Shown: positions 1,533-25,794 of the stretch, in pieces
Layout of the letters: each line of letters starts with the position of its first letter
How positions within the stretch are numbered: position 1 is the first letter of the stretch
Virus record (IMG/VR): IMGVR_UViG_3300026094_000662
Span: 1-27,039 of that record
Reading direction: 5' to 3' (one strand)
Source of the DNA: a virus
Length of the DNA: 27,039 bases
Program-made: the position numbers and the translations under genes
The notes under the pieces: model-generated
Told to the model about the DNA's origin: nothing
Database searches by the model: none
Seen by the model: only the letters and a program-made list of their open reading frames with translations

Positions 1533-1818
1533 AGTATTTAAGATAAGGACAACCTAAAGTGAATACAGATACCTCTTTTGCATCCTCAAATCCTATCTTG
1601 ATTACCCTGGCTTGTTTGTTGTTCTTATCTAATTCGTGGATTGAACCTACATAAAAACGGCCTTTCAAGTTCTTTTCAATCCACTTAACAATGGTCTGCT
1701 CAAGGTTATACCTCCGCATTTCGACGGTAACATATTCGAAATGCGGAGGCGGTACCTTTAGCTGTCTTATACCGTAGAAATTTAACGGATTTATCTTTGC
1801 AGGTCGATTTTTAAGCAT
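1531..1818 (-). CDS. Conserved-type phage protein, 95 aa
   Basis: The frame is open upstream, but the ATG at 1818 (product MLKNRPAKINPLNFYGI...) gives a short 8-base overlap with the stop of the VWA gene, so I prefer it. The product is a small basic alpha/beta protein: a helix around residues 30-45 (VEMRRYNLEQTIVKWIEKNL), then beta-type segments, ending CPYLKY. No catalytic motif is recognised. It is translationally linked to the VWA/metallopeptidase gene and probably shares its sigma70 promoter, so a partnership is possible. Nothing in the sequence proves it. Confidence 0.6.
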   Translation of the reverse strand: MLKNRPAKINPLNFYGIRQLKVPPPHFEYVTVEMRRYNLEQTIVKWIEKNLKGRFYVGSIHELDKNNKQARVIKIGFEDAKEVSVFTLGCPYLKY

Positions 1819-3076
1819 CTTCGTAGTATGTAGTAACTCCGAACGGTGCTTCTGGTGCTCGACCGTACACTGAATGAATGAGGAATACAGTGTCACAGTA
1901 GTCGGGATCACCCCAGCTGTTCCACGGCATACCATCCGTAAACATGATGAACTTCTTGGGCTGGATATCATGCTCCTTCATGTAGTTCCAGTTGCAGTCA
2001 AAGTCGGTTCCTCCGCCGCCTTTGATATCATATTCTGTAATATCGCGACCGTCGTCTGCTGAAAACTCGTCTTCGTTGTAGACTTCAGTGTCAAAACACC
2101 ACAGTTTAATGCGATAGTCTTCGTACTGATCCATGATGCCTTTGATTTCTGAAAGAAACACACGAGCCTGTTCGTCACTAATCGAACCCGACATGTCAAG
2201 CGCAATGCAGATATCAATTGTCTCGTCAAAGTTCTGACCAGGTAGTACAGCTCCCATGTGCCAGCCCTTGCGTGACGGACGAGCAAAAGTAAAATCGTTC
2301 TTGATAGTGCTCTGAATCTGCTGCTGAAGAATCTCACGCCAGTTCATCTTAGGCTCAGTAAGATCCTTGATCATACGTTCAATTTCGCCAGGTACGTTGC
2401 CGGCGCCTGCACCTTGTGCAGCAGAAATCATGTTTTCTTTAATCTCGTCTCTAATCTTTTCTAGTTCTTCACGGGTATACTGGGGACGCCCGCCTTTGCC
2501 TTCGCCGTCCTTTTGTTTGTTTCCGGAACTGTTGCCTTCTTGTTCTTTTTCCCAGTCAACATGCTCGTCAAGCATCTTGCCTAATTCATCAAGGTCGATC
2601 TTATCAGCCTGTTCATACAGTTCGTCGTAGATTTCTTCTGATGTCCAGCCGTCATATTTGAAATCCTGATAGATTTGAATCTCAGGAACATCACCGATTT
2701 TGTCACGTACTAGAGTGTTGTTTACTTTGTAGTCACAGGCAACGTTATACAACTGTGGGTTGCGTTCTTCACGCCGAATAATATGATCAAACACACAGTG
2801 AAGGATCTCATGTGCAATTACAAATTCAATTTGTTTGGTAGTGAGTTTGTTAAAAAACTGGGAGTTATAAAACAGATTGCGACCATCTGTAGCAGCAGTG
2901 GGACACCAGCCATCACATGGCTGAACTCGCAGGCGAGTCGCCATATTGCCAAACCACGGATGACGAAGAAGCAGTCCTACACGAGCAGTAATTACTTTTT
3001 CTTTTACGTCGTTTTGCAAAGCAGCAAGTGCTTCTTCAGAAAGTTCTTCGTGTTCGAGTAGAGTTTCGTCTGCCAC
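1811..3076 (-). CDS. VWA-domain protein with HExxH metallopeptidase-like domain (DUF2201-like)
   Basis: A 421-residue protein starting at GTG 3076 behind an AGGAG ribosome site. Residues 86-98 contain HEILH (His89, Glu90, His93), followed by an N-A-C-D-Y-K-V-N-N segment near 111-120, the pattern of the putative metallopeptidase domain joined to VWA domains (DUF2201 type). A charged linker (about 160-215) follows. The C-terminal VWA domain shows a MIDAS: D294-M-S-G-S298, a GGGGTD loop at about 353-358 and FTDG at about 379-382. Such proteins pair with MoxR-type AAA+ ATPases, and one is encoded directly upstream at 3164-4246. The partners act as chaperone or metal-insertion machines in bacteria; the phage role is unknown. 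It has its own sigma70 promoter. Confidence 0.85.
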   Translation of the reverse strand: MADETLLEHEELSEEALAALQNDVKEKVITARVGLLLRHPWFGNMATRLRVQPCDGWCPTAATDGRNLFYNSQFFNKLTTKQIEFVIAHEILHCVFDHIIRREERNPQLYNVACDYKVNNTLVRDKIGDVPEIQIYQDFKYDGWTSEEIYDELYEQADKIDLDELGKMLDEHVDWEKEQEGNSSGNKQKDGEGKGGRPQYTREELEKIRDEIKENMISAAQGAGAGNVPGEIERMIKDLTEPKMNWREILQQQIQSTIKNDFTFARPSRKGWHMGAVLPGQNFDETIDICIALDMSGSISDEQARVFLSEIKGIMDQYEDYRIKLWCFDTEVYNEDEFSADDGRDITEYDIKGGGGTDFDCNWNYMKEHDIQPKKFIMFTDGMPWNSWGDPDYCDTVFLIHSVYGRAPEAPFGVTTYYEDA

Positions 3077-3105
3077 AGTGTTCTCCTAATTACCAGTGTA
3101 TGTAT

Positions 3106-3134
3106 ATAATACACAATTTTGAGGGATTAGTCAA
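3106..3134 (-). promoter_or_regulatory. Sigma70-type promoter of the VWA gene
   Basis: Minus strand: TTGACT (3134-3129), 17-base spacer, TATTAT (3111-3106). It lies in the 87-base gap between the terminator of moxR and GTG 3076. The -35 begins at the end of the terminator U-run, so termination and re-initiation are directly adjacent. Confidence 0.8.
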
Positions 3135-3158
3135 GAAAAGGGGCGAACAAATCGCCCC
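3133..3158 (-). terminator. Rho-independent terminator after the MoxR-type gene
   Basis: Minus strand: stem GGGGCGA, loop TTTGT, stem TCGCCCC (3158-3140), a perfect 7-bp GC-rich hairpin followed by TTTTCTT (3139-3133). It starts 5 bases after the TAA of the 3164-4246 gene. It is the only strong intrinsic terminator I see in the window. Confidence 0.9.
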
Positions 3159-3163
3159 AATAG

Positions 3164-4246
3164 TTATGCCTTCTGAGCAGCAGTAATGTACTTGCCATAG
3201 CGCTCGTGGAACTCGTCGAAACACTCAATTGCGTCCGGATCAATTGGCAGACTGTACTGCGTCAGTGCCAGCTTGATACCCATGACAACTAACTCTGTCT
3301 CGAAATTATCCATTGAAAAGCGCAGAAAGTTGTTAACCTTGTCGTCAAACTTCTTGTCGCCTGCATCGCTGGCCTCTTTAAGCTCATAGCAAAGAGAAAC
3401 TGTGAGAGAATACATTGCGGAAATTTCTTTTGTGTTGAGCTCAGTTACCTTGCCTTCAAGAATATCGCCGGGATTAGGCATCTGCGATGCAACCTTGCGA
3501 TGTGCCATAAACTTCACAGCAAGGCCTTCGCCTACAGCACCTGACACAAGATCAGTAGTAGTGCTTTCGTCTAGTGAGTCCTCAAGCAGTTCGCTTACAA
3601 ACGACCACGAACGAGGCGTTGCAAACGAACGACTAGGCGACTTAGGATCAAAGTCGTAGAGGTCCTTCTTAGAAAAAGTAAGATAGCCTACAACGTCTTT
3701 GTGAATGTTATTGTCAACAGCCCACTGAAACCAGTCGTCAAAGTTAACAGCCATCTCAAGGTGAACAAAGCGATTAGCCAATGGTGCCGGCATGCGATAG
3801 GTTACACCCTTGTCCGCCTCACGGTTGCCTGCTGCTACAATGAATACATTGTCAGGCAGCGTATAAGTACCAACCTTGCGATTGAGAATCAGCTGATAAG
3901 CAGCAGCCTGTACAGCCGGAGCAGCAGAGTTCATTTCGTCTAGAAACAGAACAATATTGTCATGCTGTGCAGCCAATTCTTCGTCTGGCAGCTCAAGCGG
4001 CGGAGCCCAAACCATCTTGCCAATATTAGAATCAAAATAGGGAATACCCTTGATGTCAGTTGGCTCCCAAAGCGAAAGACGAACGTCAATAACCTTGGCA
4101 TTCATCTGCTCACCGATCTGATGAACAATATCACTCTTGCCAATGCCGGGAGGACCCCAAAGAAAGATTGGACGCTTCTTGCGAATAGCGTGATTAATAG
4201 ATGCCTTTGCAGAGTTAGGCGTAAGTTGACGAGTTGCAGTATCCAT
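3164..4246 (-). CDS. MoxR-type AAA+ ATPase
   Basis: A 360-residue AAA+ ATPase. Walker A is GPPGIGKS at residues 31-38. Walker B is IVLFLDEM at about 98-105, with the extended E-M-N-S-A form of MoxR-type proteins. A sensor-1-like AAGNRE segment sits near 155, followed by RMPAPLANRF, the usual MoxR arginine/lid region. The C-terminal third is a helical lid domain. MoxR ATPases remodel or activate partner complexes, usually through a VWA protein, and here that partner is the next gene (1811-3076). The gene has a consensus sigma70 promoter (4286-4313) and a strong terminator, so it forms its own unit, with the VWA gene re-initiated separately. The phage function is not known to me. Confidence 0.88.
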   Translation of the reverse strand: MDTATRQLTPNSAKASINHAIRKKRPIFLWGPPGIGKSDIVHQIGEQMNAKVIDVRLSLWEPTDIKGIPYFDSNIGKMVWAPPLELPDEELAAQHDNIVLFLDEMNSAAPAVQAAAYQLILNRKVGTYTLPDNVFIVAAGNREADKGVTYRMPAPLANRFVHLEMAVNFDDWFQWAVDNNIHKDVVGYLTFSKKDLYDFDPKSPSRSFATPRSWSFVSELLEDSLDESTTTDLVSGAVGEGLAVKFMAHRKVASQMPNPGDILEGKVTELNTKEISAMYSLTVSLCYELKEASDAGDKKFDDKVNNFLRFSMDNFETELVVMGIKLALTQYSLPIDPDAIECFDEFHERYGKYITAAQKA

Positions 4247-7830: not shown

Positions 7831-8700
7831 TCATGTTCCCCAGGCATTTCCGAAGAGGTCGATGTGGAGTCTCGGTGTGTATCTCCAGCCTTTTGACATT
7901 GCGAGTTTAGCGACTCGTTTCGTGTTAAACTCATACTCCTCAGATCGTCCGCCGAGTGGCATGATGTAGACTGGACATTCGATTCCTGCTTCTCGATATA
8001 ATTCTGTAGCTTGAGTAACTTCGTCCACGTCTTGTTCATCAGCAACCACAAACTTAAAATACTGGTCACTGTGAGGAGTGTCAAAGTATTGCCTAGCAAT
8101 CTCAGGCTTAATAGCATTATTCCAACGCTCTCCTGAAACGGTGAGCTTTGGTGAACACGAAAAGGTAACATGTATTCTGTCTTGAGTTCGAAGCCAAGCT
8201 TCAAAATCTGGCTGTAACTTCTGTGTTGTATTTGTTTCAATAGTGACATGTTTTAGATCCTGCATATCTGGGTGAGCAAACAGTTCTGGCCAAAACTTCT
8301 GCCAGAGCATGGGCTCGCCGCCTGTTAATATTAGATGAATATCCTGTCCGTTTGACTGTGTCCATCTACCTTCTGGAATGAGGGATAGCAAATGTTCTAC
8401 TACTTCATCTACAGTTTTATCCTGCATAAACTTCTTGAACTCTGGATAGATAGAAGCGTATGTGTCGCATCCTGTATGCACAATTGGTAGATCAGTAAAT
8501 GTTTTGGTATTTTCCACTACGCCGCTGTCTAGGAGTTCTTTGACTTCTGGATTATGTTTACCCATCTCTTCGTTTTTATCTCTGCCAAATGCCTTGCAAC
8601 GGAAGTTGCAACCGAATGTGCGTAAGAAGAGAGAAGGAACACCTACAAATCTGCCTTCGCCTTGTACTGAGTAAAATGCTTCTGAGTATCTTAGATTCAT
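7831..8700 (-). CDS. queE: 7-carboxy-7-deazaguanine synthase QueE (radical SAM), variant cluster motif
   Basis: I start at ATG 8700, which forms ATGA with the folE stop; the longer frame upstream lies inside folE. The 289-residue product shows SVQGEGRFVGVPSLFLR (QueE N-terminus), C31-N-F-R-C35, GGEP at 127-130 (radical SAM motif 2), and TPRLHIDLFG near the C-terminus. QueE converts 6-carboxy-5,6,7,8-tetrahydropterin to 7-carboxy-7-deazaguanine using SAM and a 4Fe-4S cluster. The third cluster Cys is not at the usual position: the C-D-T signature that follows it is found at Cys78 (GCDTYAS), so about 40 residues are inserted inside the CX3CX2C loop. It is co-operonic with folE and belongs with dpdA and the queD-like gene. 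Confidence 0.9.
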   Translation of the reverse strand: MNLRYSEAFYSVQGEGRFVGVPSLFLRTFGCNFRCKAFGRDKNEEMGKHNPEVKELLDSGVVENTKTFTDLPIVHTGCDTYASIYPEFKKFMQDKTVDEVVEHLLSLIPEGRWTQSNGQDIHLILTGGEPMLWQKFWPELFAHPDMQDLKHVTIETNTTQKLQPDFEAWLRTQDRIHVTFSCSPKLTVSGERWNNAIKPEIARQYFDTPHSDQYFKFVVADEQDVDEVTQATELYREAGIECPVYIMPLGGRSEEYEFNTKRVAKLAMSKGWRYTPRLHIDLFGNAWGT

Positions 8701-9383
8701 CGTGGAGCAAACTCCTGTTGTAGTTTGATATTGTGAAAGAATTCTTCTTTTACTGATGCGTCTTTCATGAACGCACCTTCTAGTACTGTTGTTTGTGTGA
8801 GTGAAGAATGTGCCATAATGCCTCTGTTTTCGCAGCAACCGTGCGTACACTGTATATATACGCCCACATTTTCTGAACCTGTTGCTCGCATAATTTCTCT
8901 AGCAATATCGTTAGCAAGTTCTTCCTGTAGTGTTCCTCTACGAGCACACCACTGAGCAATTCTAGTATATTTAGAAAGCCCGATCAGTTTTTCTGCTGCA
9001 ATAATGCCGATATATGCTACACCGGTAACAGGCTGATGATGATGCGAGCATACAGAACGCAGCTCTGAACGCACTACCAGCATTCCTTCATAGCCGTCTT
9101 TGGGATTGTTTGGAAAAGCAGTTGCGTTAGGCTGTGGATAATATCGTCCGCTCATTAGTTCGTTGATATACATCTTAGCAAGACGTCTGCCAGTGTCCTG
9201 TGAGTTAGGATCATTAGCTCTATCAATTACAAGAGAGTCGAGAACCGATTCAAACTTTTCTGTAAGTTCAGAAACTAGCTCTTCTCTTTCACCGTCTTCG
9301 ATGTACTGTGAGATATTATCTCCTGCCCAGTAACGAGCATCTGCTTGTTCTAATCTATTTTTTATTTTTTCTGATGTTTTCAA
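8697..9383 (-). CDS. folE: GTP cyclohydrolase I
   Basis: A 228-residue FolE type I enzyme, which converts GTP to 7,8-dihydroneopterin triphosphate, the first step to folate and to 7-deazaguanines. Visible motifs are RSVCSHHHQPVTG at about 110-121 (zinc Cys112 and His115; family form CEHH, here CSHHH), LIGLSKYTRIAQWCARRGTL at about 133-152, and CTHGCCENRGI at about 179-189 carrying the second zinc Cys183. Length is normal (E. coli FolE 222 residues). The next gene is queE with an ATGA overlap, so the pterin made here most likely feeds deazaguanine synthesis, not folate. A near-consensus sigma70 promoter (9424-9452) lies directly upstream. Confidence 0.95.
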   Translation of the reverse strand: MKTSEKIKNRLEQADARYWAGDNISQYIEDGEREELVSELTEKFESVLDSLVIDRANDPNSQDTGRRLAKMYINELMSGRYYPQPNATAFPNNPKDGYEGMLVVRSELRSVCSHHHQPVTGVAYIGIIAAEKLIGLSKYTRIAQWCARRGTLQEELANDIAREIMRATGSENVGVYIQCTHGCCENRGIMAHSSLTQTTVLEGAFMKDASVKEEFFHNIKLQQEFAPR

Positions 9384-16110: not shown

Positions 16111-18783
16111 TTATTCTCCAAAATCAAACAGAGTGCTGAATGTGTTGTTTCTCTTGGTGTCTTCGAGATCCATATCCAACACGCCTATTAGATTTTTTAA
16201 TTTTAGGTCTATAATAGTTTCTGCCATTGCTGTGTCATCAAACGGTAATTCTTTGAACCAGTTTGGCAGTCTTAGTTCATCTGTAGGATAGGCGACTGAA
16301 GTGTACCCCAGCGGGTTCTGTTTCAGTTTACACACAATCACTTTCATACCGTCTACAATTTCCTGCGAGTATTTGTCACCATTCATGCGCTTGAGAGTAT
16401 TCCAGTTGATTGATGCTCTTACATGTCCGGGCATGTTTGCTTTGCCTTTCCTTTGTTCTTCTTTTTTGTAGTGTCCGATTTTGTTTGCTCGCTTGGGCGA
16501 TCCTTTCTCCCATCCCGGCATGTTTTCAAACTCTTTTCTGAAGGCTGTGATTCTTTCAAGCACATCAGAATCGTCATAACTTTGGAGTACCATAAGCAGT
16601 ATTTCCATGAGAAATTCCTGCATGTACACAGGAGTATCTGAACGACGCAAGTCAAGACCCATTGCTTTGACTTTGCCCGGCTCGCTCTCTACATCTTTGC
16701 GTTCTCCTTCGTCGTCATATACAAGAATAGCATAGCGCTTTTTCGTAATAAACAAGCCGCTTTCGCCTACAATCTCTCTGCCAGCAGCAATCACTTCCGA
16801 ACGTGTTTTTGGACAATGGAATGCTCTTTGCATAAATTCTCTGAACGAAGAGTTTACCTGTTCTGCTAATTGATCATACAATTGTACAACAGTTTCTTTT
16901 GTCCAAGGAACCTTGCCTGCTTCGATATCATCTTTCAGTATAGGATAAGCAGAGAAGTAAACCGAGTCAGTGTCACCATATATGACTGCTTCGCCTGTAT
17001 GATTATATTCACCCGTAATTGCTTTGTTTACTTCCGCACTCATGTGCTTGACAATCTGCCTACCTGTTAGCGTTGTTGATTGTCCTAAGCGTTTGTCATA
17101 GAATCTACAGCCAGGATTAAGAATAGCACCATACAGTGAGTTAAGGTTGATCTTTTTAACGAGCTGACGCTTGTCCCAGAACGCAGTTTCTACTGAATTT
17201 CCTGCGTCCTGTGCTTTTTTCTTTTTGGCCTGTAATTCCTTTCTTTCTGCGTACCAGCGTTTTAGCAAGCCAGGAATAACACCTTCAAATTCTGTTGTAA
17301 GAATTGTACCGTTTGCTGTCAGCATCATAGGCGCATGAGAATTATAGATTTTATCATAAACTTCTGCACCTGACAGCACTTCCTGTCTGCCATCTTCCCA
17401 ATCAAGAGTAATTGCAAGATCCTTTCTTCTCTCCATTACAGCATCATATTCAAGAGATCCAAAGTGATTTTCCCATGCTGCTGCGAAAGATTTTTTCTTG
17501 AGACCTGTTTCTTCCTGAATCATGTCTTCTGTATAATCCTGCCTTAACTGACCTATAATAGTTTCAGGCGCCATGTTAAGTGCGCGAATCACAGAAGGAT
17601 ATAGAGAGTTCAAGTCCATTGAACCTATCCATTTGTGCAAGCCTTTTTTGGGATAGGCAACATAGGCACCTGCTGCTCTTGTGTCTTCTTCTTCGTTCTG
17701 TTTGGGCCTATTAGGCACAACCAACCCTCTATGATGTGCTTCATTAATAATTGCCTGTTCTGTAACAGCAACAGCACCCATTGTGGTCTGCATAAGCACG
17801 GTGTTTGCGTGAGCAAGCTCGTTCGATAGATCAATAAATCTCAGTTTCTTGTCCAGTTTATCAAGCAGTGCAGTGTCCTGTCTATTGTATTCTATAAATT
17901 TTCTGAAGTCTTGGTTGTATAATTGATCTAGTGTACCTTCATACACAGTTTTTCTTTCACCTATCTCAATCTCACCAATTGCATCTAGTCGATATGAGTG
18001 TCTTTCTTCATAGGTGTATTTTCTATACAGTTGAAGAGAGTCAAGATGTATTCTACCTACCAAATCGAATGTTTCCGCAGTTTTGCCATAGCGTTCAAAT
18101 TCACGCTTCTTGGGCAACTGTTTCCATAGACAGAATCGTCGAGTGTCGTCTTTAGATAAAACACGTGATACTCTGTTCACAGTGTAGGGAATATCATAGC
18201 CTTCCGAGTTCCAGCCTGACAACACATCAGCATCTTCGATCACATCCAAGAATGCCTGCAGCATATCTGCTTCTTGTTCATAGAGAAAAGTATTTTCAAA
18301 CTCTTTCACACTTTCCTGTGCTTCTGCCATGGTCATTGTCTTTGGCGGAATAGCAAATGTGATAAGAGCATCCATCCATTGCAGATGAACTGTGATAGCA
18401 GTGATTGGCATAAACGGATCTGCAGGATCTGCGAATCCTCGTTCTGGATCGAAGTCTGTCTCAATATCAAAAAACGCGATATTCAGTTTAGGGGCGTCTT
18501 GATTGAGATAGTTTTCAGATAGGCACTGAAAGATTGGATTTACGTCTGATTCAAACAGGCCCTTGTTTTTGTTAATTGCAACTTCCTTGCGAAAATCTTT
18601 GGTTGATTTGCACACTATGCGTGACACAGAATCACCATATACAGATTTATATTTCCCTTTTGGATCTTCGTGATAGAATGTGTATTTGACTGGATAGTCT
18701 TGAAAATGTCTTTCGCCGTCGCGTCTTTCGACTACACGAATAACATCAGATTGTCTGTCGAAATAGCCATCGACATATGCCAT
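16111..18783 (-). CDS. 43: T4 gp43-type family B DNA polymerase
   Basis: An 890-residue replicative polymerase, nearly the length of T4 gp43 (898). The exonuclease domain carries DIE (106-108), GWNSEGYDIPY (190-200) and YNRQD (299-303). The polymerase domain carries motif A MDLNSLYPS (389-397, Asp390), motif B K543 with NSLYG (548-552) and motif C YGDTDS (602-607). The C-terminus ends FSTLFDFGE, equal in position and type to the gp43 tail that binds the gp45 clamp. Proofreading residues are intact. The leader contains a 5-bp/8-nt hairpin at 18802-18819 like the T4 gp43 autoregulatory operator. The following gene (36 codons) is coupled at its stop. Confidence 0.97.
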   Translation of the reverse strand: MAYVDGYFDRQSDVIRVVERRDGERHFQDYPVKYTFYHEDPKGKYKSVYGDSVSRIVCKSTKDFRKEVAINKNKGLFESDVNPIFQCLSENYLNQDAPKLNIAFFDIETDFDPERGFADPADPFMPITAITVHLQWMDALITFAIPPKTMTMAEAQESVKEFENTFLYEQEADMLQAFLDVIEDADVLSGWNSEGYDIPYTVNRVSRVLSKDDTRRFCLWKQLPKKREFERYGKTAETFDLVGRIHLDSLQLYRKYTYEERHSYRLDAIGEIEIGERKTVYEGTLDQLYNQDFRKFIEYNRQDTALLDKLDKKLRFIDLSNELAHANTVLMQTTMGAVAVTEQAIINEAHHRGLVVPNRPKQNEEEDTRAAGAYVAYPKKGLHKWIGSMDLNSLYPSVIRALNMAPETIIGQLRQDYTEDMIQEETGLKKKSFAAAWENHFGSLEYDAVMERRKDLAITLDWEDGRQEVLSGAEVYDKIYNSHAPMMLTANGTILTTEFEGVIPGLLKRWYAERKELQAKKKKAQDAGNSVETAFWDKRQLVKKINLNSLYGAILNPGCRFYDKRLGQSTTLTGRQIVKHMSAEVNKAITGEYNHTGEAVIYGDTDSVYFSAYPILKDDIEAGKVPWTKETVVQLYDQLAEQVNSSFREFMQRAFHCPKTRSEVIAAGREIVGESGLFITKKRYAILVYDDEGERKDVESEPGKVKAMGLDLRRSDTPVYMQEFLMEILLMVLQSYDDSDVLERITAFRKEFENMPGWEKGSPKRANKIGHYKKEEQRKGKANMPGHVRASINWNTLKRMNGDKYSQEIVDGMKVIVCKLKQNPLGYTSVAYPTDELRLPNWFKELPFDDTAMAETIIDLKLKNLIGVLDMDLEDTKRNNTFSTLFDFGE

Positions 18784-19425: not shown

Positions 19426-20060
19426 CCGGAAAATACTTTGCGATTATCGAAAGCGCGGTGCCAGCCAAAAAACTGTGCTTTGTAATCAGAATGATCATCT
19501 GAGGATAGGTTATACCATTCTGACTTGCGTTTGATTAGTTCTTGTGCCCCTGCTTCCCAGTCTGTGGTTTCGATGATGTGTTCTAGTTTTTGTTTTGCTT
19601 CTACTGCTTCTTCTATAGAAAGAAAATCTTGTTCTACATGCATAACTTCCATACAGATATCCTGTGACACATAGTCCAATGAAAAATCAATGCCCCACTT
19701 AGGTTTGATACCTAGTAATTTATACAATATAGGCCTTTCTTGTGCAACTTCTTCTAGCTGTGCTCTTGCTTCGCCTGCAAAGGCATACCTTTCTATTATC
19801 ATGCAGTGGTCTAACACCAACCCAACTTCAGAATCTTCGTCGTCAACATACCAGTATTGCGCCGGAGAACGAGTAAACTGTATTTCAGTATTCAACTGCC
19901 TGTTCATAGCGTCATAGTGCAGTTTTTCAATGGGAGTAAGAATTTCGTAGCCATCCTTATCAAAGTCTTGCAGTTTGAGAGTTTCTACAAGATGTCTTTC
20001 AATTGGCTGTGTTAGATATGGATTTTCAGTAAATTCAGGGTTAAGGTTTCTTAGTTTCAT
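19422..20060 (-). CDS. Conserved-type phage protein, 212 aa
   Basis: Unknown function. It begins MKLRNLNPEFTENPYLTQPI and is acidic with many Glu, Trp and Tyr residues: QYWYVDDEDSEVGLVLDHCM near 68-87, LLGIKPKWGIDFSLDYV near 114-130 and a YKAQFFGWHRAFDNR C-terminus. No fold or active site is recognised. It is coupled by ATGA to the 114-aa gene that carries the C-terminal tag, and it closes the head block before the dsbA promoter. The helical, acidic character fits a scaffold-like or assembly protein, but this is weak. Confidence 0.62.
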   Translation of the reverse strand: MKLRNLNPEFTENPYLTQPIERHLVETLKLQDFDKDGYEILTPIEKLHYDAMNRQLNTEIQFTRSPAQYWYVDDEDSEVGLVLDHCMIIERYAFAGEARAQLEEVAQERPILYKLLGIKPKWGIDFSLDYVSQDICMEVMHVEQDFLSIEEAVEAKQKLEHIIETTDWEAGAQELIKRKSEWYNLSSDDHSDYKAQFFGWHRAFDNRKVFSG

Positions 20061-20098
20061 ACGCCGTAACGATTTGTCTTCTTTTTTGCTACTGGACT
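20057..20098 (-). repeat. C-terminal tag copy A (SPVAKKKTNRYGV)
   Basis: The last 13 codons and stop of the gene at 20057-20401 encode SPVAKKKTNRYGV. The same 13 residues end the next upstream gene (20403-20747), but with seven silent base differences, so the peptide is conserved, not copied recently. Confidence 0.9.
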
Positions 20099-20401
20099 CT
20101 GTGTATTTGTTCCGGGTTGTTCATTACTGCCATCATTTGCTAGTAATTCGCTTTTTTGGCCTAGCTTTTTTTCAGTTGCAGAGATAATTTCGTCTTCTCC
20201 TCTCGAATATGCTACGGTTACTGCTTTGTTTTTTGCGGGACCGTTTTCGTGGTATTTGGTATGGTCTGCCATGCCCATGCCAAACCTATAAGTATCATAG
20301 GGACTAGAGCTTGGCATATCAGGATACATGCTTGATTTAGGTAACGGATCGCTGTACTTAGGAGTCATTTCTCTTTCTGTTATGAATTCTCTTGCCTTCA
20401 T
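20057..20401 (-). CDS. Probable capsid-targeted protein with C-terminal tag, 114 aa
   Basis: I start at ATG 20401 (product MKAREFITEREM), one base after the upstream stop; an earlier ATG lies in the preceding gene. The N-terminus is very like the T4 internal-protein capsid-targeting sequence MKTYQEFIAE: M-K-x-x-E-F-I-x-E with an I-T-E site for gp21-type cleavage. A Pro/Ser-rich linker (residues about 15-40) follows, then a Lys/Glu-rich part and the SPVAKKKTNRYGV tail. The T4 counterparts are packaged, cleaved and injected. Function of the mature part is unknown. Coupled by ATGA to the next gene. Confidence 0.72.
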   Translation of the reverse strand: MKAREFITEREMTPKYSDPLPKSSMYPDMPSSSPYDTYRFGMGMADHTKYHENGPAKNKAVTVAYSRGEDEIISATEKKLGQKSELLANDGSNEQPGTNTQSPVAKKKTNRYGV

Positions 20402-20402
20402 T

Positions 20403-20444
20403 TTAGACTCCGTAACGATTTGTTTTTTTCTTAGCAACTGGACT
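20403..20444 (-). repeat. C-terminal tag copy B (SPVAKKKTNRYGV)
   Basis: Last 13 codons and stop of the gene at 20403-20747. Peptide identical to copy A at 20057-20098; third-base changes at Val, Ala, three Lys, Gly and Val codons only. Confidence 0.9.
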
Positions 20445-20747
20445 GGTTATGTTGGTATCTTGAGTTTCGCCAGTGTCTTTTACAGGATCCCCTATATCAT
20501 TAAATGACACGCCTTTAGATCTGAGAAATTCTTCAAAATGTTGTTTTTCTTCGTCAGAATAGAACATCACCATAGCGTTATTGCCAACCTGATTGTAGGT
20601 AGGGGTCTCTGCTCTGTATTCTTTCATGAGAGTAGAAAGTTCATAAGGCAGTATAGGAATATTCAAAACATTTGTCTGAGAGATCATAGTCTCCATTAGT
20701 GAAAATCGTTCGAGTAAATCTCTCATCTTTTCTGCATCTGAGCTCAT
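20403..20747 (-). CDS. Phage head-region protein with C-terminal tag, 114 aa
   Basis: Unknown function. A helical N-terminus with MRDLLERFSLMETMISQT (about 8-25) is followed by ILPYELSTLMKEYRAETP, YNQVGNNAMVMFYSDEEKQ with a short beta hairpin, and the C-terminal SPVAKKKTNRYGV tag identical to that of its neighbour. The two proteins differ elsewhere, so the tail is a shared module. It has no clear capsid-targeting sequence. It lies 3 bases after the 231-aa gene and one base from the next start, so it is in the head operon. Confidence 0.68.
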   Translation of the reverse strand: MSSDAEKMRDLLERFSLMETMISQTNVLNIPILPYELSTLMKEYRAETPTYNQVGNNAMVMFYSDEEKQHFEEFLRSKGVSFNDIGDPVKDTGETQDTNITSPVAKKKTNRYGV

Positions 20748-20750
20748 ATA

Positions 20751-21446
20751 CTACTTTTGGCGTTTCTTTATTGTTTCTGCTAGTTTGCCGGAAAGCTGTT
20801 TGTTATATTCTTTCACAAACTTGCTTTCTTTTTTCATAGAGTCTGCAGCATCAATGTCAGCACTTATTTCTGAATCCATCGACTTCTCATAGCTGAGGTC
20901 GTGATACACAGCATCAATGTAATCTGCTGCTTTTGTGATATAACTCTGCTGCCAAGCCTGCAAGCCTTCTGCCTCTGAAATCGTTTTCAACAAATCGTGT
21001 AGTTTGATAGAATACTTGGAAAGCTTATATAGCTCGGAACGCGCCATTTGAATTTCGTGATCCTGTTCTGCTTTAGCAGCAAGATCAGCAAGTCCTTCTC
21101 TTATTTTTTGTTTTTTATTTTCTTTCATCTTTGTTCTCTTAATATCAAATGCAGTGTTACCGATAAATGACATAAGATTTTTATGCATGGATCTTACGTC
21201 AGGGTCATCTTTATCTACTTCGTCAGTCATATTTTTGAATGCTTTTGTTGACTGCCTATAATCTGGTTTTTTAGGCGGATTAAACTCTAAAGAACCCCGT
21301 TTATATTCTTCCCAGTCACTAGGAATAGTGTTTTTAAAACTGCTTACGCTGCTGACCATTCGCACTGCATCTTTAAAAACACCTGCATCGTTCGGATCGT
21401 CGAATGATATGGCCTTGCCAGCTTTTTTACTTACCAATGTAATCAT
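20751..21446 (-). CDS. Phage head-region protein with helical domain, 231 aa
   Basis: Unknown function. Residues 1-110 hold a basic N-terminal part (MITLVSKKAGKAISFDDPND) with many Lys and Asp. The second half contains MARSELYKLSKYSIKLHDLL, about residues 134-153, followed by a W-Q-Q-S-Y-I-T-K-A-A-D-Y-I-D block and VYHDLSY, a helical motif I associate with marine T4-like phage proteins of the head cluster. The C-terminus is Lys-rich and helical. No ribosome site is visible before ATG 21446; instead a late octamer lies 5 bases upstream (21452-21459). Confidence 0.66.
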   Translation of the reverse strand: MITLVSKKAGKAISFDDPNDAGVFKDAVRMVSSVSSFKNTIPSDWEEYKRGSLEFNPPKKPDYRQSTKAFKNMTDEVDKDDPDVRSMHKNLMSFIGNTAFDIKRTKMKENKKQKIREGLADLAAKAEQDHEIQMARSELYKLSKYSIKLHDLLKTISEAEGLQAWQQSYITKAADYIDAVYHDLSYEKSMDSEISADIDAADSMKKESKFVKEYNKQLSGKLAETIKKRQK

Positions 21447-21451
21447 AATTA

Positions 21452-21459
21452 TATTTATC
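21452..21459 (-). promoter_or_regulatory. Late-promoter-like octamer GATAAATA adjacent to ATG
   Basis: Minus strand GATAAATA, then TAATT and ATG 21446. It matches the octamers at 330 and 5026, but the distance to ATG is only 5 bases, so a transcript starting at the usual position would be leaderless. It overlaps the stop of the preceding gene (21455-21457). Confidence 0.5.
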
Positions 21460-21670
21460 GCTTAACAGTTTTACCGCCCATAAGGTTTTTGTCAACATTT
21501 AGAGCATTTTGAGCTGTGCCGTCTGGGTTTGTTTTTTGAGGAGCCTTAGGCACACCTTTCTTGTCTCTCTTAATTTTGGCTTTTGCTGCTGGCGGATTAG
21601 CAACACTCGCAACAGACCCTGCTGAAGTTGCTCCTGCTGTTGCTGCTTCTAGTATTTCTCTAAATCTCAT
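21455..21670 (-). CDS. Probable capsid-targeted small protein, 71 aa
   Basis: I start at ATG 21670, which forms ATGA with the stop of the 577-aa gene; an upstream ATG at 21706 lies inside that gene. The product starts MRFREILEAATAGATSAGSV, so the first eight residues look like a capsid-targeting sequence ending I-L-E, a T4 gp21-type (I/L)xE site. The mature part would be Ala/Ser/Thr-rich, then Lys/Pro-rich (AKAKIKRDKKGVPKAPQK), i.e. small, basic and disordered, like T4 internal proteins. Probably packaged with DNA. No enzymatic motif. Confidence 0.75.
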   Translation of the reverse strand: MRFREILEAATAGATSAGSVASVANPPAAKAKIKRDKKGVPKAPQKTNPDGTAQNALNVDKNLMGGKTVKR

Positions 21671-23400
21671 GACTTTTTCCTTCCTGACTTCATGTTTGCG
21701 CACCAATGTGCCATCTTCTGTTTTTCGCCCGAAGAGTTTTTTGCTTGTTTTCTTAGTGCTGTGACGCTTTTGGAACAGTCGACACCTGCTTTTTTTGCTC
21801 GACCAGGACGACTTTTGCCTTTCTTCTTACCGTCGGCAAAGTTTTCGCCTATTTTTGTACGTTGTAGGACATCTGTGTTCCATATTTGGTAAGCAATATT
21901 GTCACTGTCTACCATACGCACACCGTCATAGCCCATGTTTTCAAGTTCGCCTGTGCTGTATTTGTCTATGTCGTCATATGAAGCCAACTTTGCTTGAGGA
22001 GATATTTCAAACGCCATATCTACTCCCTTGCCTGTTGTTACAGTATTGTCCCAGTCGGTATTATCTACACCATTAAGCCAAAATGTTCCATCTGCGCTTT
22101 TACTTAGATCTATCACTGCAAAATCTTGAGAACTTCTGTGTATGCCAATCTCTCTGTTTTCATTTTTCTTCTTTCCAGCGCAGTGTGCTTTTTGAGAAAA
22201 ACCTTTAGGATTATTACAGTTTATAGAACCCTTATACTTTTTGCTCCACTTTTCCGATACATTATCTTCCGCATAAGTGTCTTTAGCAGTGTGAGAAAAA
22301 TCTCTTATCAGTTCCTCAATCGAAGCATCTTTTACTCTTATAACCGGCACTTTATCCATACCTAATTTTAGGTATGCGTCATATCGATGATGCCCGTTCA
22401 CAATAAAACCATTTTTATCAACTACTAGTGGCTTGTTGAAACCGTTCTTGATGCTTTTTACGGTTTTGTTTACCATGCCGGGGATTCTTTGGTCCTGCGA
22501 TGTTTCTAGTGTAGAAGGATCAACCATATCCGGTTCGAGGTCATAACTGCCTTTCAAGTCCTTTATGCTGACCTGAGGCATTTGATTTCTGGGAATATTT
22601 AACTCATCTAGAATTGATTCATTAGATTTTTTACTTAGACTCTCGTCTACTGGTTGATCTATATGCTGTTTGATGTTTTTTGCAGTTCTTTCGAACTTGT
22701 GATCCTTGTGTTTGAATCCTATGCCGCCTGCATCTTCCCATTTTGAAATATTCACACCGTAATCATCTATCAAGATATTAGGAGTCCCGTCAGGCTGTGT
22801 AGCATATTTTGCTTTATCGTGTGTAATTATTACGTCTTGTGGAGGGAAGAATTTTAGATGTTCTTTAACCCATAATCTTTTGTGTGGTTCAGAGTTTTTA
22901 TCACCTGGCAGAGGCGACGAGAGTATTTTGTATTTTCCCTTTACCTGTTTAATAAGATTAAGCAGACTGGATGCGTTTGCAGTCAAAGGAAGATTTATCC
23001 AAAAATCGTCTGTTTGTCTTATTCGATCAAGAGCATCGTCTATGTTGTATTTTTTGTTTATTTCCCGCCAATCGTCGACATTCATTAGATCAGCCCAGGA
23101 TCCGAAAAAGTCAGCAAGCACACCGTCCATGTCTACGAATATTTCTGTGGATTTTGAAATCTCACCTACAGCATCTTCAAAAAGTCTGTAATTGCGAGAT
23201 TCGGACAGTCCTAAATTAAACAGAACATTTGTTTTAGAACCTTTTGTTTTCTTTGAAAGAGTAGGAGGACGACCGTCTTTATCAACAGTATTACCAAACT
23301 TCGCAGCCTGTTTTTTAACTTCTTGTGGTCCAACATCTTGAGTTTGATTCTGTTTGGTTATCCTGCCAACACCGCCCTCCTGTAATTCTCTAAATCTCAT
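21667..23400 (-). CDS. Multidomain 'polyvalent' virion protein: capsid-targeting tag, HAD phosphatase, ParB-like domain, Cys motifs
   Basis: 577 residues, starting with MRFRELQEGG, a gp21-type L-Q-E site. Residues 85-235 are a HAD-type nucleotidase domain: IFVDMDGVLADF (Asp90, Asp92), Ser161-Ser162 after KYKIL, Lys196, and ILIDDYGVN with Asp212-Asp213. Residues about 270-360 hold a ParB-like domain with GFIVNGHHRYDAYLKLG (331-347). A basic Cys motif, Y-K-G-S-I-N-C-N-N-P-K-G-F-S-Q-K-A-H-C, is at 389-407. Residues 415-515 end in LENMGYDGVRM, an ART-PolyVal-like pattern. A second Cys/basic motif (SSGEKQKMAHWCANMKSGRK) ends it. Such mixtures resemble polyvalent proteins injected with phage DNA. 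Coupled by ATGA on both sides. Confidence 0.72.
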   Translation of the reverse strand: MRFRELQEGGVGRITKQNQTQDVGPQEVKKQAAKFGNTVDKDGRPPTLSKKTKGSKTNVLFNLGLSESRNYRLFEDAVGEISKSTEIFVDMDGVLADFFGSWADLMNVDDWREINKKYNIDDALDRIRQTDDFWINLPLTANASSLLNLIKQVKGKYKILSSPLPGDKNSEPHKRLWVKEHLKFFPPQDVIITHDKAKYATQPDGTPNILIDDYGVNISKWEDAGGIGFKHKDHKFERTAKNIKQHIDQPVDESLSKKSNESILDELNIPRNQMPQVSIKDLKGSYDLEPDMVDPSTLETSQDQRIPGMVNKTVKSIKNGFNKPLVVDKNGFIVNGHHRYDAYLKLGMDKVPVIRVKDASIEELIRDFSHTAKDTYAEDNVSEKWSKKYKGSINCNNPKGFSQKAHCAGKKKNENREIGIHRSSQDFAVIDLSKSADGTFWLNGVDNTDWDNTVTTGKGVDMAFEISPQAKLASYDDIDKYSTGELENMGYDGVRMVDSDNIAYQIWNTDVLQRTKIGENFADGKKKGKSRPGRAKKAGVDCSKSVTALRKQAKNSSGEKQKMAHWCANMKSGRKKS

Positions 23401-23702
23401 TCTATATCCATGTCCGCCAGTCTTCTATCAAGAAACACAGCAAGTTTGAAATCCTTATTCGTAATTGTGTTCTTATCATGGGTATGCAGACTTATCAGCA
23501 TTTCGTCATAGAAAATTACCGCATCAATAAAGTGATCCATTTCGGTCATCTTCTGTTCAATAGAAATTAGAAACCTAAGAGCATGGTTGTAGTCGGAAAA
23601 TGTTACTCTTTTTCTTAGGCGTTTGCCATTGTCAACTACTTCCCAGTTTTTCAGATAATTGTCTGCAAATTCTTGTGCTTTTTGAGGTGTGATCTTTTTC
23701 AT
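23397..23702 (-). CDS. Pterin-4a-carbinolamine dehydratase-like (PCD/DCoH) protein, active site altered
   Basis: I start at ATG 23702, giving an ATGA overlap with the upstream stop and a 101-residue product, the usual PCD size. The fold is recognisable: W20 in LKNWEVVDNGKRLRKRVTF (about 17-35), YNHALRFLISI, and the C-terminal LHTHDKNTITNKDFKLA (about 72-88), where PCD proteins have L-x-T-H-D-x-x-G-L-T-x-x-D. The catalytic HHP motif is HFI here (His57-Phe58-Ile59), so the second His and the Pro are lost. Enzyme activity is doubtful; a structural or DCoH-like binding role is possible. It sits in the head block, not with folE. Confidence 0.72.
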   Translation of the reverse strand: MKKITPQKAQEFADNYLKNWEVVDNGKRLRKRVTFSDYNHALRFLISIEQKMTEMDHFIDAVIFYDEMLISLHTHDKNTITNKDFKLAVFLDRRLADMDIE

Positions 23703-23929
23703 CGTTTTCTTCCTCTTAAACCCTGTGGCATGTTTAGTTGATGACCTGTCCAATATGGTCTAGAAAACCACAATTTGAACCATTCTTCTGTGCCCGGCTC
23801 AATACCTTTTTCTCTTTCTATCTGCTTTTTCTCTGTGCCTGTTACAGAAATATTGGAACCTTCATAAGGCTTATAGCCTGTGAATTCGTTTTTTATCCCT
23901 GCTAGTTTTTGTAGTTCAGCAATGTCCAT
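23699..23929 (-). CDS. Small phage head-block protein, 76 aa
   Basis: Unknown function. It begins MDIAELQKLAGIKNEFTGYK, then contains an acidic/basic mixed region and PGTEEWFKLWFSRPYWTGHQ (about 45-64) with several Trp residues and a basic C-terminus (GLRGRKR). The WFKLWFSRPYWTG part is a sequence I associate with marine T4-like phage head-region genes. No clear (I/L)xE-type targeting site. Start and upstream stop overlap as TAATG, and its stop overlaps the PCD-like start (ATGA). Confidence 0.65.
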   Translation of the reverse strand: MDIAELQKLAGIKNEFTGYKPYEGSNISVTGTEKKQIEREKGIEPGTEEWFKLWFSRPYWTGHQLNMPQGLRGRKR

Positions 23930-24261
23930 TAGTACTTGCCTTGCTGAATATTCGCCATCTCTTCTGTATAAATTCTGTTTATAATAGTCTGTCGATCCTG
24001 CATATCAAACACTCTAGAAGCATTCTTACCAACTTGAAATTTTTTGCAGTAGGTATTCATTGCCGAGTCAACTGCAGCACCAAACATTTTGCCGGCATCG
24101 ATTTTTTGTTTTTTGCCGCATGCATCTTTTAACCGCATAACTGCAGGATAATATGTTCTTCTGTAAAAATGAGGGTCATGTCGCATGAAAACAATAACGT
24201 CCTCAGTTACATCAAAAGGTAGTTTATTGTTATGCTGCTCAGCAAATTCACTAATCTTCAT
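23929..24261 (-). CDS. Probable capsid-targeted protein, 110 aa
   Basis: I start at ATG 24261 (product MKISEFAEQHNNK), overlapping the upstream gene by 11 bases; the longer frame lies inside that gene. MKISEFAE is similar to the T4 capsid-targeting sequence MKTYQEFIAE, although the residue before x-E is Phe instead of Ile or Leu. The rest contains DVIVFMRHDPHFYRRTYYPA (about 21-40), a basic, aromatic-rich segment, and a C-terminal helical part (TINRIYTEEMANIQQGKY type). Function unknown. Confidence 0.66.
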   Translation of the reverse strand: MKISEFAEQHNNKLPFDVTEDVIVFMRHDPHFYRRTYYPAVMRLKDACGKKQKIDAGKMFGAAVDSAMNTYCKKFQVGKNASRVFDMQDRQTIINRIYTEEMANIQQGKY

Positions 24262-24724
24262 CTGACTCGCCTTCGCTAGGAAAATCGGATTTTTTCTGCC
24301 AACTGTAGGAAGTTTTATCGTCTTCAATAGGACCGCCTTTTGCCCAGGTCCTGCAACTTCTAGCTGAATGGCATTTAAAGTGATGCATCCAACAGTAGCC
24401 TAGAACACCGTCTTCGTCTGATGTTGGACCAGGCAGGCAATCTTTCATTCTTTCCGAAATGTCAAATGCCACACAGTTACCACACAGCGAACTTTTTGCT
24501 GCTTTTGCTGTTGTGCTCCAAAATTCTGCAATTTCATCCCAAAAGTTGCCTGGTTCGTCTACGTTGAGAGGACCATACTGTACATGGTCTGCCTGTATTG
24601 CGTCATTTCTATTCACAGTATTGACTTCTAGATCCTTTGTTGCCGGGGGACAATCCATCTTTGCTTCAGTCAATCGCAGTGAAAATTCTCTATTTTGTAT
24701 TGTTGCTATTTCTTGTATTTTCAT
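24251..24724 (-). CDS. Cys-rich probable capsid-targeted protein, 157 aa
   Basis: The N-terminus MKIQEIATIQ and the following FSLRLTE (L-T-E at 18-20) give a possible gp21-type cleavage site. The core carries six Cys in the order C81-G-N-C84, C96, C111-W-M-H-H-F, C118-H-S-A-R-S-C124, together with RTWAKGGPI (125-133). The CxxC and later Cys spacing fit a metal or iron-sulfur centre (a HiPIP-like comparison is tempting, not proven) or a zinc domain. The T-W-A-x-G-G-P-I tail is a conserved-looking signature of this protein type in marine T4-like phages. Function unknown. Confidence 0.72.
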   Translation of the reverse strand: MKIQEIATIQNREFSLRLTEAKMDCPPATKDLEVNTVNRNDAIQADHVQYGPLNVDEPGNFWDEIAEFWSTTAKAAKSSLCGNCVAFDISERMKDCLPGPTSDEDGVLGYCWMHHFKCHSARSCRTWAKGGPIEDDKTSYSWQKKSDFPSEGESDED

Positions 24725-24727
24725 TTG

Positions 24728-25342
24728 TTAATCCAACATGTCTGATACTGTCTTGCCACTCTGCCACATCTTGCAGGACCAATAGCGAGCCTTGTCGTTT
24801 GGTCCTGGATTATCACAGTTGTGTCTTGCTCTGAAACTTCTACGTGCTTCAGGATCGTCGCGTTTAATTTCCATTTTGTCTGATCCAAAGTTTACCTTTT
24901 TGGCTTTTACTTTTCCATCTGCGGTCTTGTCTCCAGAGTTAACATAAACTTTGAATTTTTTAACATCACCTCTCATCGGTTGATTTAATTTAACTTTCTT
25001 GCCATCGTATTCTGCTTCCCAGAGAGGATCGTCTGGCACGTATCCTAGTATGCCGAACTCTTCATAAAAATCTTCGTCGTTTTCAAGAGTAATTTCGTCA
25101 GTTAATTCTACATCGTCAGCTGAAATCTCAATATCGAAATCATCATAGCCTTCTGAAAAGAAATAATTTGCTAGTTTTTCTGCAAACTTGTGTGATTCTT
25201 CCTCATTAAGAGATTTAGGCAGAGGTATTTCAAAAACTGTGCCTTCCTGTGCAGTTTCAAATATTTCATACTCTGAAAACACATCTTCATTCAATGAAAC
25301 TGTGTCTTGTTTTTCCATTACTACTCTTGCAAAGTGTTTCAT
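24728..25342 (-). CDS. Cys-containing head-block protein with RARHNC motif, 204 aa
   Basis: The product starts MKHFARVVMEKQDTVSLNED with L-N-E (17-19), a possible gp21-type site. The middle is very acidic (DDFDIEISADDVELTDEITL, about 67-86). The C-terminus has RRSFRARHNCDNPGP (167-181) followed by ARYWSCKMW (185-193), a signature I associate with small head or structural proteins of phages; Cys176 and Cys190 could bind metal. Starts from ATG 25342 with a GAGAGAAA ribosome site. The acidic middle and basic Cys end suggest a scaffold or DNA-contact role; not proven. Confidence 0.7.
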   Translation of the reverse strand: MKHFARVVMEKQDTVSLNEDVFSEYEIFETAQEGTVFEIPLPKSLNEEESHKFAEKLANYFFSEGYDDFDIEISADDVELTDEITLENDEDFYEEFGILGYVPDDPLWEAEYDGKKVKLNQPMRGDVKKFKVYVNSGDKTADGKVKAKKVNFGSDKMEIKRDDPEARRSFRARHNCDNPGPNDKARYWSCKMWQSGKTVSDMLD

Positions 25343-25350
25343 AATTTCTC

Positions 25351-25782
25351 TCAGTGATTTAGATAGATGCTTTCAACCGAACCATCGGTCCAGTTTTCCA
25401 ACCGTGCTCTTATGTGTACATAATTGCCAGTAAAATTAACAAGCTCGTTAGCATTTTCTTCAACGCCAGGAGTGCTTGTAAGATTGTAAGCGTCTTCGTA
25501 TATTGTAAACCAGTCAGCGTTAACAGGATCAACTGCAAGTGTTGCTTGTATTTTAAGTGTACCTACAAAACCTGAAAGGTTATATTGAACGGTGTGGAAT
25601 CCGTCAGCGCGACCGTAATAACCGTCGCCACGCACGGGATCAGATGTAGCAGTAAGAACTTCGTCGAAACCTGTAGCAGTTACAGGATATGAAATACCAA
25701 CACCCTCTTCGTTGACAGTGTCGCCTGATTCAGTATCAGTAAAACTATATTTCAGTAAGAATGTTTCGCTTTTTGCTGGCAT
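25351..25782 (-). CDS. Beta-rich probable virion protein, 143 aa
   Basis: A 143-residue beta-rich protein, rich in Thr, Val, Tyr and Asp. It contains YSFTDTESGDTVNEEGVGIS near the start, DGFHTVQYNLSGFVGTLKIQ at about 60-79, and NFTGNYVHIRARLENWTDG at about 115-133, ending IYLNH. The N-F-T-G-N-x-V-x-x-R-A-x-x-x-N-W-T-D-G pattern is one I associate with structural proteins of marine T4-like phages (tail or baseplate type, jelly-roll-like). No ribosome site precedes ATG 25782; a late octamer lies 4 bases upstream. Confidence 0.7.
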   Translation of the reverse strand: MPAKSETFLLKYSFTDTESGDTVNEEGVGISYPVTATGFDEVLTATSDPVRGDGYYGRADGFHTVQYNLSGFVGTLKIQATLAVDPVNADWFTIYEDAYNLTSTPGVEENANELVNFTGNYVHIRARLENWTDGSVESIYLNH

Positions 25783-25786
25783 GTTG

Positions 25787-25794
25787 TATTTAGC
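25787..25794 (-). promoter_or_regulatory. Late-promoter-like octamer GCTAAATA adjacent to ATG
   Basis: Minus strand GCTAAATA followed by CAAC and ATG 25782, six of eight matches to TATAAATA. As at 21452-21459, it is so near the ATG that a standard late start would give a leaderless mRNA, and no Shine-Dalgarno is visible. Confidence 0.4.

Follow-up and report, generated by a model that had tools for sequence, protein, structure and literature searches.

We analysed the whole 27,039-nt stretch of the IMG/VR virus record IMGVR_UViG_3300026094_000662 (hereafter, the window), which is a fragment of an uncultured marine T4-type myovirus with almost all its genes on the minus strand, and we studied in it a block of ten genes at positions 20057-25342. 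We propose, with a probability of about 0.8, that N-terminal leaders target most of the block proteins to the capsid and are cut off there by a protease of the gp21 type. Precisely, the block would encode late, mostly basic, capsid-internal proteins of the phage; the leader would bring each tagged protein into the prohead core, the gp21-type protease would then cut after (I/L)xE, and the mature protein would stay inside the head. The long members would be chains of modules (a basic segment, a HAD phosphatase, a ParB-like domain and small Cys/His modules) split by hydrophobic-x-E sites, and, because further sites of this kind separate the modules, several products would probably arise from one precursor by means of the same protease. 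We regard this internal cleavage of the long members as fairly likely, and the injection of the cargo into the host as having slightly better than even odds. Comparison establishes the shared leader, the glutamate at the junction, the xE module boundaries, a copy of a gp23 segment and the gp21 of relatives; cleavage, location in the virion and ejection into the host are our inference.

The features of the block given below all lie on the minus strand, genes are named by their lower coordinate where the context is clear, and an arrow marks a predicted cut or a module junction. The initial annotation of the window had listed as capsid-targeting N-termini MKAREFITE, MRFREILE, MRFRELQE, MKISEFAE, MKIQEIAT...RLTE and, in a neighbour, SLNE. 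All of them are real, SLNE standing at residues 16-19 of a 204-amino-acid (aa) protein; overlooked were KIRE117↓GLADLA in the gene at 20751-21446, DLLE13 in that at 20403-20747 and, within the 577-aa protein, several internal sites. Leaders ending in a conserved (I/L)xE were found for genes 20057, 20751, 21455, 21667, 24251 and 24728, and not for 23929 and 23397. In the case of MKISEFAE, the tag-like start of a 110-aa protein (23929-24261), the reading as a gp21 cut site was not supported: its sequence is F-x-E, and (I/L)xE at residues 7-13 occurs in just 4% of the 50 members of its family.

In the window alone, (I/L)xE with the glutamate at residues 7-13 occurred in 4 of the ten block genes and in 6 of the 35 other genes, which is not clearly above chance (P=0.14); for residues 7-20 the counts were 6/10 and 6/35 (P=0.013). 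In the T4 genome, used as a control, 38 of 262 called genes match at residues 7-13, including those of IPII and IPIII (both MKTYQEFIAE), gp21, gp22 and gp24. Because of these two results a wider test of the pattern was needed. No phage isolate matched the window at the DNA level, and 212 relatives were collected from IMG/VR with the 577-aa protein as query. Our own simple gene caller was applied to 80 loci and to six large contigs, the longest of 156 kb, the limits of the block were set from conserved flanking genes without use of the motif, and the protein counts across relatives refer to sets made non-redundant at 70%. The block genes of relatives also include nucleotidyltransferases and peptidoglycan-binding proteins.

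Across the relatives, 92 of 214 block proteins carried (I/L)xE with the glutamate at residues 7-13, versus 111 of 896 other proteins (Fisher P=7.5e-22), and when families were counted instead the motif was present in 31/81 in the block and 60/491 elsewhere (P=7.5e-8). Control stretches deeper inside the same block proteins had no excess of (I/L)xE. The position of the glutamate peaks at residue 8, with a second peak at residue 5, which gives the consensus M[K/R][F/L/I]xE[L/I]xE. The leaders, usually of 8-20 aa and longer in some members, are common to block proteins that are otherwise largely unrelated, and in some relatives they nearly match the T4 leader MKTYQEFIAE (MKTFQEYLKEAG, MTKTFKDYLxE). 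The block proteins are also basic across relatives, with a median isoelectric point (pI) of 8.7 versus 5.6 elsewhere (P=1.5e-12). A column-based alignment score of the leaders was dropped, being too strict and also high for small conserved families outside the block.

In several families both sequence and length of the leader vary while the glutamate stays fixed directly before a conserved mature start. Such junctions are ...E↓(x)GR(I/V)VKGVN in the 577-aa family, ...E↓GLADLA in the 231-aa family, L(D/N)E↓S(V/I)FP in the 204-aa family, LFE↓AP in a nucleotidyltransferase family and E↓NFADG in a 67-aa family. When 43 sequences of the 231-aa family are aligned, the invariant columns begin with E117, the residue predicted to occupy P1. 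The window member of this family, a basic protein (20751-21446), has a 117-aa N-terminal part followed by KIRE117↓GLADLAAKAEQDHE (site codons 21096-21104); most relatives begin directly with MREKDLKE↓GLADLA.

The same signature is found at the gp23 maturation site of relatives. Two near-complete relatives with the block (G003 and G004) encode gp21 (for G003, L088 7261-7896), recognised by Peptidase_S77 (1e-27) and by PHROG 207, 'head maturation protease' (2e-57), as well as gp23, recognised by PHROG 138 (5e-97), with a gp22-type protein, assigned from gene order, between the two. A PF03420 search was uninformative on absence, since control genomes likewise gave no match. The gp23 proteins of these two relatives read YLAE↓AATAGASSAGNVA and YLAE↓NATAGATSAGNVA, and 39 further distinct gp23 N-termini from other contigs all have L-x-E just before an ATAGATSAG-type segment. 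In the window, a very basic 71-aa protein (21455-21670, pI 10.6) has the leader MRFREILE (predicted site codons 21647-21655) and, right after it, AATAGATSAGSVA (21608-21646), which duplicates the stretch located behind the cleavage site of gp23; the copy sits at the same cut point as in gp23. In T4, gp21 cleaves after L/I-X-E, the 10 N-terminal residues are enough to target IPIII, and targeting and processing use different residues of the leader (PMC9026906).

Virion evidence is available for a cultured relative. In purified virions of S-SM1, gp21 and a putative cytidylyltransferase, T4-GC190, were detected by mass spectrometry (Sullivan et al. 2010, PMC3037559). The T4-GC190 gene SSM1_190 starts MKKFSAFLNE↓AERSF and its P-SSM2 homologue, PCMG_00199, MKSFSQFLTE↓TTATQ, both T4-like leaders with a predicted cut. 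We know of no mapping of the mature N-terminus of S-SM1 T4-GC190. The protein is homologous to a block family of the relatives, cl5 (PHROG 395/3041), of which the window itself has no copy. Since it has a T4-like leader and was detected in virions, a protein of this kind with such a leader does occur in the virions of a cultured relative. In addition, a P-loop kinase of Melnitz starts MKTFAELQE↓GVYDP, and S-SM2_108, encoded between gp16 and gp17, has the N-terminus MKTLKQFLKE and the CSNPKGFSQKAHC module at its C-terminus.

As for the long members, three small modules recur in unrelated proteins, always right after a glutamate and usually with a hydrophobic residue at -3. The NFADGKKKGKSRPGR... 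(NFADG) module was found in 13 families; of its 38 distinct upstream contexts, all 38 have glutamate at -1 and 27 have a hydrophobic residue at -3 (P=2e-7). For the xATAGATSAG module (8 families, gp23 among them) the corresponding values were 19/19 and 17/19 (P=1e-7), and for the KWSKKYK...CNNPKGFSQKAHC module 7/7 and 7/7. Positions -2, -4, -5 and -6 were near background. A second NFADG set of 42 contexts had a hydrophobic residue at -3 in 37/42, versus 5-19% at -2, -4, -5 and -6; as the set was found partly with the seed ENFADGKK, its glutamate is not evidence and only position -3 counts, itself maybe slightly biased by tblastn ranking. The modules also stand as separate genes behind a leader (MRVLEIVE↓NFADG, MRAREFIKE↓KWSNKYK, MRFREILE↓AATAG) and elsewhere as inner parts of long proteins. 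Of the two closest relatives of the 577-aa protein, the one in L001 lacks the HAD domain exactly from LAE↓S, and the one in L002 lacks the ParB part and has the joins PVEE↓KWSKK and KKNE↓NFADG; in the alignment of the three, whole modules are gained or lost at glutamate boundaries. Tested blindly at BLAST start points, internal sites reached 19.5%, compared with some 12.9% when the positions were shifted; this excess is real but modest, and the module-by-module test is far sharper. The NFADG module was also sought in isolates, and none was found.

The 577-aa protein (21667-23400) consists of the leader MRFRELQE (23377-23385), a conserved basic segment, a HAD domain, a ParB-like domain and two Cys/His modules. 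The HAD phosphatase domain (residues 83-248, 22657-23154; PHROG 2643, E=3e-20; Pfam NT5C; best Foldseek match in the PDB 2i7d, E=3e-5) resembles, in sequence and predicted fold, 5'(3')-deoxyribonucleotidases. Between the N-terminal segment and this domain lies the candidate site LSE67↓S (23200-23208), in which E67 is nearly invariant and lies in a linker (66-70) modelled with low confidence. The next domain (residues 270-370, 22291-22593) resembles ParB-N/sulfiredoxin (PHROG 620, E=3e-14; Foldseek, ParB-N 5k5d). Two further candidate sites precede the Cys/His modules: VSE383 with the module KWSKKYKGSINCNNPKGFSQKAHCAGKKK (22165-22260), where hydrophobic-x-E comes before the module in 7/7 distinct contexts, and IGE519 with the C-terminal module NFADGKKKGKSRPGR...HWCANMKSGRKKS (21670-21852), for which the 38 contexts above apply. 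The AlphaFold model is confident for the HAD domain (about 80-248), the ParB-like domain (270-370) and the last helical part (530-572); sites 67, 266, 383 and 519 fall in low-confidence linkers, site 8 adjoins one, and sites 75 and 363 are not in such linkers. Pfam and PHROG searches found no peptidase domain in the protein. The initial annotation was right in calling it multidomain and missed the internal sites that make it a candidate polyprotein. We see in it a possible cargo polyprotein, to be cut by the prohead protease. On this account, which we hold fairly probable, gp21 would cut long multi-module cargo at hydrophobic-x-E sites and free enzymes and small basic Cys/His peptides inside the head; the released peptides would include, with the same degree of confidence, copies of the mature gp23 N-terminal segment, and the modules would have been shuffled between genes at the sites. 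Residues 413-519 had by eye suggested an ADP-ribosyltransferase; this reading was rejected, as only three near-identical copies were found, with no Pfam, PHROG or PDB match and a low-confidence model.

The earlier claim of a gp21-type capsid cargo is thus well supported for most of the block, owing to the enrichment in relatives, the conserved junction glutamate, the gp23 copy, the gp21, gp22 and gp23 of relatives and the S-SM1 homologue, and is not supported for genes 23929 and 23397. Several observations weigh against it. The proteomic evidence comes from the S-SM1 homologue and not from this phage. The gp21 gene that the earlier note expected is encoded in G003 and G004 and is absent both from the window and from the 106-kb contig of the closest relative, G005, a contig that has no gp20, gp22 or gp23 either. 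The motif by itself is non-specific, as the T4 control shows; two tagged window proteins (24251 and 24728) are clearly acidic, unlike the T4 internal proteins (IPs); some block genes have no motif; and about 30% of the NFADG contexts have no hydrophobic residue at -3. The non-specific motif and the window-level P of 0.14 would also fit a short common motif picked by eye, and for MKISEFAE and small families chance could still be the explanation; for families with many relatives it is refuted by the enrichment across relatives, and as a general account it is hardly credible. We consider it very unlikely, too, that the common N-termini are merely left over from recombination, or give a good start context, with no targeting or cleavage. 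Recombination is active here, neighbours sharing their 5' ends and other segments (such as the C-terminal SPVAKKKTNRYGV of the 20057 and 20403 genes), but leader sequence and length vary where the (I/L)xE junction does not, and the same signature stands ahead of modules deep inside proteins and at the gp23 maturation site.

It is also unlikely, though less so, that these are scaffold-type prohead core proteins which shape the head and are mostly degraded by gp21 and lost, and not a kept and injected cargo. T4 gp22, gp67 and gp68 are indeed cleaved into several pieces (PMC9026906); moreover, the relatives encode at the gp67/gp68 position an 80-aa protein whose start, MILREFFYF, resembles the cargo leaders, and their gp22 starts MLDALKNLFE and has at its end LAGLN, which recalls the LAG motif of family cl1. 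A scaffold, however, would hardly need folded enzyme domains (HAD, ParB-like, nucleotidyltransferase), mature S-SM1 virions contain a homologue of the nucleotidyltransferase (PMC3037559), and the quick turnover and mosaicism of the block look like accessory cargo. A more serious competitor, doubtful in our view but possible, concerns the internal sites only: their glutamate would be just the first residue of a homologous module, and only the N-terminal leader would be cut. Common descent of the module would explain an invariant glutamate without any cleavage, and the 577-aa protein could work as one multidomain 'polyvalent protein' (PMC5512222). Against this, the residue at -3 is hydrophobic in unrelated contexts in all the module sets counted above while -2, -4 and -5 stay near background, the modules are found behind leaders and behind internal sites alike, and most internal sites lie in linkers predicted to be disordered.

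The reading as processed capsid cargo places the block close to known systems. Like T4 IPI, IPII and IPIII with their capsid-targeting sequence (CTS), it has short leaders ending in (I/L)xE, late genes and unrelated, often basic mature parts behind one leader; it differs from them in being a whole operon of dozens of families, with large multidomain members, enzyme domains, a usually shorter consensus (glutamate at residue 8) and internal sites. T4 Alt, a packaged and injected ADP-ribosyltransferase cut by gp21 at both ends (PMC9026906), is, as the 577-aa protein would be, a large head-carried enzyme with an N-terminal site and one near the C-terminus, but in the latter protein no ADP-ribosyltransferase homology was found. 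The polyvalent proteins of phages and conjugative elements (Iyer et al. 2017, PMC5512222) share with it several unrelated domains, a ParB-like one among them, and a proposed delivery with the DNA; the 577-aa protein differs in having a T4-type leader and no peptidase domain of its own (common in that class), and the prohead protease is predicted to process it in trans at (I/L)xE. In phiKZ-like phages (phiKZ, SPN3US), many head proteins, the inner-body and ejection proteins, bear propeptides that a gp21-related protease removes, as would be the case here, by cutting after xE (PMC9026906), whereas our block is from a T4-type marine myovirus with other leaders and mosaic modules. As far as the sequences tell, what is new are the size and diversity of the operon and the internal sites; otherwise it would work like the T4 CTS/gp21 system. 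By analogy with T4 IPI, Alt and polyvalent proteins (PMC5512222), a role of the cargo in early takeover of the host or in protection of the incoming DNA is plausible. If the proposal is true, the T4 internal-protein system, so far a few small proteins of enteric phages, would extend to a large cargo operon that changes fast and belongs to abundant marine phages, and leader plus (I/L)xE would become a sequence rule predicting, as exact mature N-termini, what marine virions carry into cells. The internal sites would add a new idea, a cargo made as polyprotein and cut apart by the capsid protease, in a widespread uncultured marine T4-like group.

The remaining block genes are as follows. A basic 114-aa protein (20057-20401, pI 8.8) has the leader MKAREFITE↓REM (predicted cut codons 20375-20383), kept in the closest relative, L002, as MKAREFITE↓KMM. 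The adjacent 114-aa protein (20403-20747) has a possible leader MSSDAEKMRDLLE↓RF (site codons 20709-20717), with IKDILE (G005) and MKMKDILLE (L004) in relatives. These two otherwise different proteins have identical 13 C-terminal residues, SPVAKKKTNRYGV. A pterin-4a-carbinolamine dehydratase (23397-23702; Pfam PF01329, 8e-17) is the exception of the block, with neither leader nor site, and is not supported as tagged cargo; G005 has two genes related to it nearby. A 76-aa protein, MDIAELQKLAGIKNE↓FTGY (23699-23929), is a non-canonical copy of a family with LAG(I/V/L)xE↓(F/Y/H) in 47 of 55 members. The LAG(I/V)xE motif also occurs inside cl11 proteins, and a LAG motif at the end of gp22 (G003; L088 7910-9007); it may be a core-binding or processing motif. 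A Cys-rich acidic 157-aa protein (24251-24724) has the leader MKIQEIATIQNREFSLRLTE↓AK (predicted site codons 24665-24673), conserved in all three copies found (the window and two relatives). Finally, the acidic 204-aa protein (24728-25342) has the leader MKHFARVVMEKQDTVSLNE↓DVF (predicted site codons 25286-25294) and a C-terminal PHROG 7595 domain; many relatives have the family junction given above or a T4-like MTKTFKDYLxE start.

Late transcription of the block is predicted from TAAATA elements conserved across relatives. A T4-type late-promoter-like GATAAATA (21452-21459) lies 5 nt before the ATG at 21446, and the element is present upstream of 67% of the relatives of the 20751-21446 gene. 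Another, GCTAAATA (25787-25794), lies upstream of the block and 4 nt before a structural-type gene (25351-25782), with TAAATA upstream of 37/37 relatives of this gene. In five genomes (G001-G005), 19 genes have TAAATA at a distance of precisely 5 nt from the ATG; distances of 7-15 nt are rare, and those of 16-28 nt form another, broad peak. This spacing suggests that late mRNAs could be leaderless.

Elsewhere in the window there is a T4-like DNA polymerase gene (16111-18783). Near the block, relatives encode large proteins (L021 8341-11112, L010 5078-7525) with peptidoglycan-binding domains and matches to endolysin PHROGs. At 7831-9383 of the window, genes of the QueE-like radical SAM and GTP cyclohydrolase I types may serve the synthesis of 7-deazaguanine, and at 1811-4246 a DUF2201/VWA-like protein adjoins a MoxR-type AAA ATPase.

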